Source of the DNA: Auricularia sp. M13
Taxonomy: Eukaryota > Basidiomycota > Agaricomycetes > Auriculariales > Auriculariaceae
Reading direction: 5' to 3'
DNA: 64,000 nucleotides
NCBI GenBank assembly: GCA_037042915.1
Contig: CM073193.1
Span: 6,262,001 to 6,326,000, forward strand
Shown here: positions 39,177 to 45,273 of the stretch, one piece after another
How positions within the stretch are numbered: the stretch's first letter is position 1
Layout: each line of letters opens with the position of its first letter
Notes under the pieces: model-generated
Database searches by the model: none
What the model was told of the DNA's origin: nothing
Seen by the model: only the letters and a program-made list of their open reading frames with translations
Made by a program: the position numbers and the translations under genes

Positions 39177-41347
39177 ATGACGGCCGCTGCGACTTTCGTT
39201 CTTCTGCAGCTGGCCACCGTGCTCCTCGGCGTTGCGGCGATGCCGTCCCGGCAGGACCTGGAGGCTCGTCGCCAGGCTGCCTGGGCGCGCAGGGCTTCCA
39301 TTACAGCCTCCTCGAGCTCGCCGAGCGTACAGCCCAACGAGACGGCCGCCGTGCACACTATCTCCTTCAGCAATCCGGCCGCGCGCGAGTTCCTCGTCGA
39401 TGGCTCTCGCATTCCGGACGTGCCGTTTGACCTTGGACCCTCCTGGGCAGGTGCGTACCTTTAGTATGTGCTGCCAAAACATATTTCTAAAGGAGCGGTC
39501 ACTCCGCAGGATTAATGCCCATTACCGGCCATGTGAACGAGACGCGGAAACTGTTCTTCTGGTTCTGGCCCGCAAAGACCCTCGAAGGCGCGGACGATCT
39601 CGTATTCTGGACCAACGGGGGTCCAGGTGTGTTTTATACAGCTGCTCAATGGTCAGCAACGCATTGGGCTAATGAAAAATTTGCGCAGGATGCAGCTCGC
39701 TGGAAGGCATGTTGCAGCAGAATGGCCCGTTCACCTGGGCATCCGGCACAGCCCAGCCGCGACTCAACCAGTGGTCCTGGACGAACCTGACGCACGTCCT
39801 CTGGGTCGAGCAGCCTATTGGAACGGGATTCACTCAGGGCGAGGTCGAGATCACCAACGACGAAGAGCTCGCAGTCCAGGTTGCCGGTTTCCTTGAGCAG
39901 TTCCTCAATGTCTTCACCGAGCTCAAGGGCAAGAACTTCTACCTCGGCGGCGAAAACTACGCCGGCTACTACGTTCCCTATATTGCTAACTATCTATACG
40001 AGCACCCGCACGATATCGAGCTGAACACGAAAGGCGTCTGGCTGGCGGACGCGTCTATCGCGTGGGATATCGTTCAGGAGTACATCCCGACCTATTCCTT
40101 TGTGCAGGTTTGACGTTGTGCTTCCCTTTCTTGGCGCATTCTTACGTGGTTGCTGCAGAAATGGAAAGACGTATTCGGGTTCAGCAAGGAGTTCATGCTC
40201 GAGCTGCGCTCGACGTCCGACGAGTGCGGATACACGGACTTCGCGCAACAGTACCTCACCTACCCGCCGCGCGGGCCGATGCCGCTCCCGGAAGTTGCGT
40301 TCTACGGCTTGCCGAACGCGAGAAACATCACTGGGCCATGTATGATCTGGGACATGGTCGTCGACGAGGCGTTCAAGTGAGCTTTTGGCCAGACGGAACC
40401 GCCGCGCGATGCTGATGTTTTCGTAACTACACAGTGTGAATCCGAACTTCAACCTTTACAGGATCTTTGATGCCTGGCCCATCCAGTGGGACGTTCTTGC
40501 GTATCCAGGAAGCATTCCAAACCAGCAAAGTCCTATCTACTTCAACCGCACCGACGTCCAGAAAGCTATCCATGCGCCGGAGGTTGACTGGAGCGTTTGT
40601 ACCTCGCAGGTGCGCCTGTGTGTCGCCCGTGTCTTGCAATATCGCTGACCGAGCGCAGCCGGTCTATCTACTCCGGAACGACACATCGCTGCCCTCATCG
40701 TTGACCGTGTTGCCCAATGTCGTCGAGAAGAGCGAGCGGACCGTCATTATGCAGGGGTTGATCGTGCGTCGCCCTTGCCTCCTTAACGCTGTCTTGTTGG
40801 CTTTTGAGTACTGATGGACAAATAGGATATGATGATCCTTTCTGAAGGAACTCGTATCGCAATCCAGTGAGTTTTTAGTCGTAGCGTGTTTACATCTCTC
40901 AGCCGTTGATCCCTCCTTCAGGAACATGACCTGTATGTCAGCGCAAGAACTGTGAATGATTACTGAATTTGGCGCCTTACAGGGGGTGGCAAGCAAGGCT
41001 TTCAGACGCCCATCGAAGAGGACACCTTTGCCATCGACCGCTTCGGCGTCCTAGGCTCGGTGCACGAAGAACGCAGTGCGTTCCCTCTCCGTGTCTTCCC
41101 TTTGCCGCGCAGCTAACGTCCCGCGCAAGAACTGACCTACATCGAAGTCAACCTCGCAGGACACATGATCCCCGTGCGTTCCCCTCGCCAGTTTCTCCTT
41201 CTGCCAGCTGACGCGTACTAGAAATATGCACCATGGGCAGCCTACAAGAGCCTGGCGTATTTGCTCGGCCGGACGTACCTGAACTCAACCTCGTTCGACG
41301 AGGGGCTCTACCCTAACGATCTCAACTTGTTCGGCGGGTTTGCTTGA
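39177..41347 (+). CDS. secreted S10 serine-carboxypeptidase homologue lacking the catalytic serine
   Basis: Eleven exons encode 540 residues: 39177-39450, 39510-39626, 39689-40107, 40159-40376, 40435-40609, 40659-40763, 40826-40866, 40922-40932, 40983-41075, 41130-41173 and 41222-41347. A signal peptide (MTAAATFVLLQLATVLLGVA) starts the protein. S10 family blocks follow: FWTNGGPGCSSLEG, VEQPIGTGFT, GENYAGYYVPYIANY, IDMMILSEGT (Asp) and AGHMIPKYAPW (His). The nucleophile is normally Ser in GESYAG, but here codon 220 (39955-39957) is AAC, Asn. The Asp and His sites remain and the frame is intact, so this looks like an inactive secreted relative rather than an ordinary pseudogene. Exon 8 is only 11 nt. 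Active members remove C-terminal residues from peptides, in the vacuole or outside the cell. Confidence 0.9.
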
Positions 41348-41753
41348 CATTTTCCCTTTTCTATGTTCAGCTTTCACTTCAGTTGCATTTCTTTATCATA
41401 TAACGGTTATTGCTTATAGTTGGTCTGTCGCGTTTCTGCGAATAGAGGGTCATTGCTGTCTTGCGCTTGGAAAGGAGCCGATAAAATGTCGGCGACGTCG
41501 CTTGGACGGCTCCCCCTTCGGATTTGGGGAAATTCAAAATCATGGGATAGATGCGAAGGGTCTTTACAGTAACATAGTTCTGCACAGTTAGAAGAGGAGG
41601 GTGCATAGGTGTGAGTTGGGAATCACAAGACGGCAAGGACGAGTCCCTCGGCCGCCGAACCCTCGTTCAACGAAACATCACCAAGCAGCACCAAACATAC
41701 GGTGGAACGGCCGCAGCTTGGCCGCAGTGCACCAATACAGAAGGCCCGGGTCT
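41348..41753. other. intergenic region
   Basis: This is the 3' flank of the S10 gene. No gene is seen. Confidence 0.4.
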
Positions 41754-41986
41754 GAACCTCTAAATGGAGGACTGAAATCACCGTGGTTGAGCGGGCTGGC
41801 ATGAGATGGACCAAATTTGAACGGCTTAAAACCTATCTGACCGGAACCGGTATTCACTAGGCCTGAACCTCCAAATCTAGAACTGAAATCCCCGTGTTCT
41901 AGCGGGCTGGAAATCGGCTGGCAAGAGATGGACCGAATTTGAACGGATTAGGACCTATCTGGCCGGATCCGGTTTTCACTGGGCCT
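41754..41986 (+). repeat. imperfect tandem duplication of about 111-122 bp
   Basis: Two units, 41754-41864 and 41865-41986, both begin GAACCTC and share blocks such as GAACTGAAATC/GGACTGAAATC, AGCGGGCTGG, GAGATGGACC, ATTTGAACGG, ACCTATCTG and TTTCACTGGGCCT/TATTCACTAGGCCT. The second is about 11 bp longer because GGCTGG and its flank are doubled inside it. The pair lies 100 bp before the ATG of the NmrA-like gene, so it may be a duplicated promoter element. Confidence 0.85.
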
Positions 41987-42086
41987 GTTCATCCGTGCAC
42001 ACTTCGTCAATGAAACCCGGCTGCCCATAAAGCGAGGGAAAATGCACTGTCTTAATCAGCACCCCCAACAGGAGCATTACACACCT

Positions 42087-43571: not shown

Positions 43572-45273
43572 TCAGTATTTGCTGACCTTCGCGAAATCGG
43601 CATTACGCCCCGCGGCGGACGGAGCGCCACGGCCACGGCGCAGGATGCTGGGCTTGTTGCTCGGGCGGCCCGCGGGACGGCCAAATGCGCGGCGCGTGAT
43701 GGTGCGGTTTGGGCCCGCGAGCTGGCGCTTCGCGCTGCAAGCGCCATTGTCCTTCCAAACCTCCGCCGAGCCGGGCGTCTCGCCCTGCGTCCACCATGCG
43801 GCGGTGTAGCTGTGACCGTTGTACGACACGGTGTTGCCGCCAGTGAAGACCTTGTCGGCCGCCCAGGCGTCGCCGCCGCATGCGCCGCCGGTGCTCGGGG
43901 CGGGCTCGGGGGCGGGCGCCGGGGCTGGGTCGCAGGGCTCCTCCGGAGCAGGCTCAGGTGCTGGTGCAGGCTCGGGCTGAGGAGCGGGCTCAGGAGCGGG
44001 AGCAGGAGCAGGCTCGGGAGCAGGAGCAGGCTCGGGGGCGGGTGCAGGCTCCGGAGCGGGCGCAGGGGCGTCACCACTGCGAATCGCGTCCTTGATGGCC
44101 TTGTCGAAACCGCCGTTTGCACGGGCCTGAGACGCATCCCAGTACTGGAAAATGGCAAAGGAATGAGTTAAACTTATGCGTGATCAAGCTCGTAAAAGGC
44201 TTACCATGACACCGCCGAACGAGCTGTACTGCGACGCAGTCTCCTTCGCGATGTTGGCGAGGGTGCCGACGTCGACGTAGCCGCTTCCTGCAGCTGTCGA
44301 TGAGGCAGGGGCACCGATGTAGATCTTCACGTTCTTGTTTGGGGACGTGTTCTTGGCCCAGTCGTCCCACTGAGCGAAGTTCCAAGCGTTGGGGTTGGCG
44401 TAGTTCTGGAGACCGCAGTAGTTGTTCTACAACGCGAACATAAGGGTGTAGTCCGACGGCGAAGCTGGAAAAACGTACGTAGAACTGAACGTAGACGGCG
44501 TCAAACTCGGCCTTGTTGAGAGTCTCGCCCAGGTTGGCATCCGGGAAGACGCACTGCAGGGATGGTCAGCGAGCTATCACGGGTCAAGGGAGCATTTCCG
44601 ACCTGAGGCGCAGCAGTCACGTAGTACTTCTTGCCGTCAAAGTGCGAGCGAAGCTGCTTCACGAAGTCCGCGAAGAGAGGAGTGCCGCCACCTTCAATGT
44701 CAAGATCTACACCATCCAGAACGGCATCGCCGAAGGGACGGGTGTCGCTCTGGCCGCCCATGAACAGGTTCCAGAACTGGTCGGCAAAGTCGGAAGCTTG
44801 CTGCGAGCTGGTGAAGGTGCTGCCACCGGTCGCGCCGCCCATGGAGAGTAGCACGGTCTTGCCCTTCGCCTGGCACTTCTTGATGTCCTCGGACAGGAAG
44901 CTGCAGTCCGGCAGCTGCCTTTGTAGGATAGCTTCAGCCTGATAGCACATAGACGTCGAGCGGCGGCTCACGAGTCACCGAAGGTCTTCTGCGTGACGGC
45001 ACTGCAGATGTTGGCAAGGTCGAGCTGGGGCAGCCCGCCCGGACCGAAGAAAACCGTGAGGAAGGAAATGGCGAAAGTGTCGATGCTATCGTCGTCACAG
45101 TACTCTCCCAGGCTCTTCTGGAAGTTGGCCGTGTCCTGGCCGTTAGCCGCGCCGTACGAGTTCTGGCCCCAGTACGCGACCGTGTTGTCGTTGCGGTTCA
45201 TGTCGAACGCGTTGACGCCCAAGAGCGACATAAATACTGAAGCCGCCAGGAGCGAGCCTTTGGAAGCGACCAT
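43572..45273 (-). CDS. secreted GH18 class III chitinase with CBM5/12 domain
   Basis: Five exons on the minus strand (45273-44972, 44918-44603, 44553-44479, 44426-44205, 44144-43572) encode 495 residues. A signal peptide ([19 protein letters not shown]) leads into a GH18 barrel with [22 protein letters not shown] and the catalytic motif [10 protein letters not shown] at about 168-177, whose Glu is present. The fold ends with SSFGGVMYWDAS. A long Ala-Pro-Glu linker follows, then a CBM5/12 chitin-binding module at about 400-440 (WAADKV ... [16 protein letters not shown] ... VWKDNGAC). The enzyme cuts chitin in cell walls during growth, autolysis or attack on other fungi. Unusually, a basic tail of about 55 residues ([20 protein letters not shown] ...) continues beyond the point where such modules normally end. 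Confidence 0.93.
43893..44073 (-). repeat. Pro-Ala-Pro-Glu linker repeat of chitinase
   Basis: GGCTCGGGAGCAGGAGC-type repeats on the plus strand encode repeating APAPEP units on the minus strand. This is a stiff, probably O-glycosylated linker between the catalytic and binding domains. Confidence 0.85.

Follow-up and report, generated by a model that had tools for sequence, protein, structure and literature searches.

In this fungus (Auricularia sp. M13), an intact gene encodes a homologue of the S10 carboxypeptidases that carries asparagine in place of the nucleophile serine and glutamine in place of a second conserved active-site glutamate. Judging from its sequence, we consider it probable (roughly 0.6) that the gene product is a secreted, probably glycosylated pseudo-carboxypeptidase with an S10 fold that has lost its peptidase chemistry, rather than the product of a decaying gene. 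An S10 domain, a substituted catalytic residue and coding constraint (the latter an average over the terminal branch) occur together in this protein. An earlier note on this DNA left a choice between a secreted pseudoenzyme, a recent loss and a base-call error. The pseudoenzyme is the best supported of the three, because the residue equivalent to Glu65 of carboxypeptidase Y (CPY) is also substituted (by Gln), the active-site blocks have accumulated more changes than those of the nearest paralogues and the reading frame is constrained.

Gene structure and active-site residues

Positions refer to the window, the whole 64,000-nucleotide stretch of DNA that was analysed. Rebuilding with a spliced aligner gave a locus at 39177–41344 on the forward strand, with 11 exons encoding an S10 homologue of 540 amino acids (Table 1). 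All 10 introns are GT–AG and 48–62 nt in length, and the 540 codons continue across them without a stop or a frameshift, as the earlier description of a clean eleven-exon frame had it. Residues 99–510 match Peptidase_S10 (PF00450) with an E value of 8.8e-67 and 226.7 bits (curated cut-off, 21.9 bits). The N terminus is hydrophobic (judged by eye, without a predictor), the sequence contains eight N-glycosylation sequons and four cysteine columns are common to five aligned paralogues. A search for a second copy found none in the 52.1-Mb, 14-contig assembly, in which the locus is single-copy; duplication of the locus within the assembly was therefore rejected.

Table 1 Positions of the S10 gene, its exons and its active-site residues in the window
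Feature	Position (strand)	Basis
S10 gene, including stop	39177..41347 (+)	Spliced-alignment model; Pfam PF00450
Exon 1, with hydrophobic signal-peptide-like N terminus (by eye)	39177..39450 (+)	Spliced-alignment model
Exons 2–6	39510-39626, 39689-40107, 40159-40376, 40435-40609, 40659-40763 (+)	Spliced-alignment model
Exons 7–11	40826-40866, 40922-40932, 40983-41075, 41130-41173, 41222-41344 (+)	Spliced-alignment model
Asn127-Gly128-Gly129, kept (CPY Asn51-Gly52-Gly53; oxyanion/carboxylate-binding block)	39614..39622 (+)	Alignment to solved S10 structure
Gln141 (CAG) at CPY Glu65 position	39718..39720 (+)	S10 models of the genome; five PDB alignments show Glu
Glu219 (GAA), kept (CPY Glu145)	39952..39954 (+)	S10 models of the genome
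Asn220 (AAC), replacing nucleophile Ser (CPY Ser146)	39955..39957 (+)	PDB alignments; paralogues
Asp437 (GAT), catalytic Asp position, kept	40826..40828 (+)	KEX1 alignment; models of the genome
His496 (CAC), catalytic His position, kept	41162..41164 (+)	KEX1 alignment; models of the genome
Stop codon TGA	41345-41347 (+)	Spliced-alignment model

CPY equivalents are given on a numbering that we assume by counting from the NGGPGC block, and we take the CPY bridge to be Glu65–Glu145. The nucleophile motif reads GENYAG, and in five PDB alignments (KEX1 and four lysosomal protective protein entries) Asn220 stands opposite the Ser of GESYAG; both the codon and its coordinates are exactly those first reported. 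A splicing artefact was dismissed because the codon lies within the 419-nt exon 3, away from splice junctions, and the frame is continuous through all ten introns. In the KEX1 alignment, the Asp block contains Asp437 and the His block His496, so that the catalytic Asp and His of an active S10 carboxypeptidase are both present, as the first reading had stated, and only the nucleophile Ser of the triad is missing. The oxyanion block, described earlier as intact, does retain its Asn-Gly-Gly, but towards its end a conserved Glu is replaced by Gln141; all five printed PDB alignments, which represent two different proteins, have Glu here. The Asn-Gly-Gly block and the Glu65/Glu145 pair are thus kept except for Glu65.

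In a wheat carboxypeptidase structure, the ligand contacts named are Asn51, Gly52, Gly53, Cys56, Glu145, Ser146, Tyr147, Tyr239, Val340, His397 and Glu398, a list from which Glu65 is absent (PMC7034887). Gln141 therefore alters the surroundings of the active site, which by itself is no proof of inactivity.

The protein might still be an enzyme, its Asp, His and oxyanion loop using another group, for example a His-activated water or a residue from elsewhere in the fold. The equivalents of Asn51, Gly52, Gly53, Glu145, Asp338 and His397 are all kept, and the S10 paralogues of this genome vary widely around their active sites, both of which would accommodate such a change. However, no substitute nucleophile is apparent near Asn220: residues 201–240 contain neither Ser nor Cys, and their sole Thr (Thr207) is 13 residues away. 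From the residues present, we regard retained catalysis as very unlikely.

The eight flanking open reading frames in a family scan matched F-box (two frames, of which one scores under the curated cut-off), NmrA, AAA, C2H2-type zinc-finger, CBM5/12, calponin-homology and Sin3 families, and therefore give no hint of a linked pathway. The CBM5/12 carbohydrate-binding module occurs in the frame at 43575–44183 (reverse strand), together with a Pro-Ala-Pro-Glu-rich repeat stretch. Downstream of the S10 gene, the sequence at 41749–41994 is partly duplicated in tandem, at spacings of 111 and 122 bp and in copies that are 82–85% identical.

S10 paralogues and the serine position

Other S10 loci were gathered by Pfam, protein and pattern searches, and 27 were fetched and modelled. 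Three of these (L040–L042) produced no S10 model, and from L025 (C8:1705500-1711000) the script recovered a 70-amino-acid 3′ S10 piece alone, leaving 23 other models that reach the nucleophile position; the search counts are lower bounds, so further paralogues may exist. The models are script-made, some with doubtful small exons and several without the Asp or His end. Serine occupies the nucleophile position in 23 of 23, and Asn is found only in the window protein, a difference that is more than chance. The surrounding hexamer, called invariant in the earlier note, is not: GESYGG, GESYSG, AESYGG, SESYGG, TESYGG, SGSYGG and GQSYGV also occur, and Ser alone is constant. The S10 motifs given in an account of the Aspergillus niger degradome (GESYA, TESTG and AESYG) likewise all contain Ser (PMC7804941).

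The nearest paralogues, L016 and L035, are 56% and 58% identical to the window protein and keep Ser, encoded by AGC and AGT, respectively; AAC is thus a single transition from the codon of L016, in agreement with the one-base distance proposed at the outset. At the Glu65 position, Glu is present in 19 of the 23 other models. In the remaining four (L020, L021, L024 and L026), Ala or Gly takes its place and Glu145 is missing as well, whereas the window protein keeps Glu145. Its CAG codon is again one base from the GAG of L016 and L035.

These codons bear on whether the Asn is a base-call or assembly error. A single wrong base would suffice, and four consecutive A bases at 39953–39956 extend into the Asn codon. 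An error of this kind is nevertheless unlikely, because two single-base changes fall on active-site residues; in addition, the rest of the gene is free of frameshifts and stops, and the assembly has one copy of the locus.

The four other models without Glu65 (on contigs C11 and C3) cluster together with support of 100/100; their motifs read GGGPG and SGSYGG, the equivalents of Asn51, Glu65 and Glu145 are all lost and Ser is kept. Their substrate recognition may differ. A further divergent S10 locus, L019 (C1:6418500-6423500), has a model with an internal stop and carries Gln for Glu145 and Arg for Cys56; it is possibly a pseudogene.

Pattern searches, which miss motifs split by introns, found the degenerate DNA pattern for GEN-Y-[A/G]-G once in the 52-Mb genome, at the window locus; the backward control also matched once. 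The broader G-E-x-Y-[A/G]-G pattern gave 66 matches against 55 for its backward control. On reading the list, 11 of the 66 have a Ser codon, 7 of them at known S10 loci; the remaining four comprise L039, which is an S10 gene, and the three loci without an S10 model. In 54 of the 66, the variable position is neither Ser nor the Asn of the window. Among prokaryote contigs, the Asn-form pattern had seven matches, none in frame with an S10-like GGPG block, in a scan of no demonstrated power: its Ser-pattern control was found in 0 of 2, 0 of 299 and 0 of 199 genomes, which makes the scan uninformative. We recognised no description of an S10 protein with Asn for Ser in the titles and abstract openings of the papers listed on S10 pseudoenzymes.

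Sequence evolution and coding constraint

A tree of 24 proteins places the window protein beside L016 and L035 (100/100), without resolution of the order within the trio. The terminal branch of the window protein in this tree (0.39) is around twice as long as those of the two paralogues (0.22 and 0.19). Codon models were fitted to seven sequences and 400 codons on a topology that we fixed, the outgroup order of which differs from that of the protein tree. An omega of 1 along the whole terminal branch was rejected (lnL −8109.0 versus −8092.3 with omega free, around 16.8 log units). Omega on the window branch was not raised (0.025 versus 0.065), in models in which synonymous change is saturated, the window branch is at its bound when omega is free and one inner branch is at its bound in all three fits. 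With a single omega, the window branch has a length of 6.41, intermediate between L035 (5.39) and L016 (7.96), so the acceleration in the protein tree is not echoed by the codon models.

We also scored derived residues, from residue 88 onwards, in each of the three paralogues against the other two, defining blocks as the ±8 residues around eight active-site positions. Within the blocks, the window protein has 16 derived residues of 65, compared with 6 of 55 in L016 and 4 of 53 in L035; outside them, the counts are 51 of 211, 36 of 196 and 28 of 188. The excess in the blocks (16/65 versus 10/108 for the two paralogues jointly; Fisher p = 0.008) is weak evidence, as the columns are non-independent, the rest of the window protein is also faster (51/211 versus 64/384, p = 0.03, again on non-independent columns) and blocks and remainder change equally within the window protein (16/65 versus 51/211, p = 1). 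Among columns that are invariant in the other six proteins, the window protein breaks 8 of 96, including the Glu65 and Ser146 positions; the nearest paralogues break 2 of 90 and 4 of 92, and four further paralogues 5 of 93, 10 of 98, 9 of 97 and 8 of 96. The total for the window protein is thus not exceptional.

The main rival to the pseudo-carboxypeptidase reading is a recent or strain-specific loss, in which the enzyme was active until lately and the Asn allele is young, in a gene that is set to decay or is masked by active paralogues. We consider this possible but doubtful. It would fit the single transition between AAC and AGC, the intact frame and splice sites, the Ser and Glu65 kept by the other two members of the same group, and the codon models, which have no relaxation on the window branch. 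Set against it, the change at the Glu65 position and those elsewhere in the active-site blocks suggest longer drift. The codon models do not separate a long-standing from a recent loss, because they show no acceleration, are saturated, hit bounds and use a fixed topology. Together, the evolutionary data fit a constrained gene with a drifted active site, without setting the date of the drift.

Possible function and relation to known pseudoenzymes

Under the pseudo-carboxypeptidase reading, the window gene would belong to a small three-paralogue subfamily and would have exchanged its nucleophile Ser for Asn and its Glu65-type residue for Gln, changes that would end peptidase chemistry; acyl-enzyme chemistry is not expected, because there is no nucleophile. 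The protein most likely still folds, given that the S10 fold, the oxyanion loop, the Glu145 equivalent, the Asp, the His and four cysteines are kept. It might bind peptide C termini and leave them uncut, which is plausible because most of the carboxylate-binding side is preserved in the oxyanion loop, Glu145 and His. It would then serve, outside the cell or in the vacuole, as a decoy that binds peptides, as a scaffold or as a stabiliser of a partner protein.

Other alpha/beta hydrolases, such as haloalkane dehalogenases and epoxide hydrolases, have Asp at the nucleophile elbow, and Asp-to-Asn mutants of these enzymes can regain activity through deamidation. By the same route, Asn220 could deamidate to Asp after secretion and turn the S10 fold into an Asp-nucleophile hydrolase for a new class of substrates, an outcome that we regard as extremely improbable. 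Among the papers listed, titles and the first lines of abstracts gave nothing that settles the question of deamidation rescue.

The window protein shares its domain with yeast KEX1, CPY, human cathepsin A and wheat carboxypeptidase II and, like these active S10 carboxypeptidases, retains the NGGPGC oxyanion block and the Glu145, Asp and His positions; it differs from them by Ser to Asn and Glu65 to Gln. As a pseudoenzyme, it would plausibly be a new example of a well-known kind. Ecm14, a member of family M14, is a pseudo-carboxypeptidase secreted by fungi; related proteins, predicted to be inactive, occur in basidiomycetes (PMC7706225). Ecm14 and its relatives resemble the window protein in being fungal, carboxypeptidase-like and substituted at catalytic residues, and the window protein may also be secreted. 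Unlike the window protein, Ecm14 belongs to a metal-dependent family; it is also conserved across ascomycetes, whereas the Asn form is known here from one genome.

A second parallel lies within the S10 family itself, in cathepsin A, the protective and catalytic functions of which are reportedly distinct (as in the title of a 1991 paper). Cathepsin A has a protective, complex-forming function beside its peptidase activity, and there is a mouse with a catalytically inactive Ser190Ala form (PMC5241486, PMC3937211). Unlike the window protein, natural cathepsin A keeps its Ser, and the Ser190Ala form is engineered.

A domain match alone would count the window gene as a carboxypeptidase, although the nucleophile is missing from its product. 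Should relatives prove to share the Asn form, the window protein would be for S10 what Ecm14 is for M14 and would provide a natural system for asking what a carboxypeptidase fold does when it does not cut.
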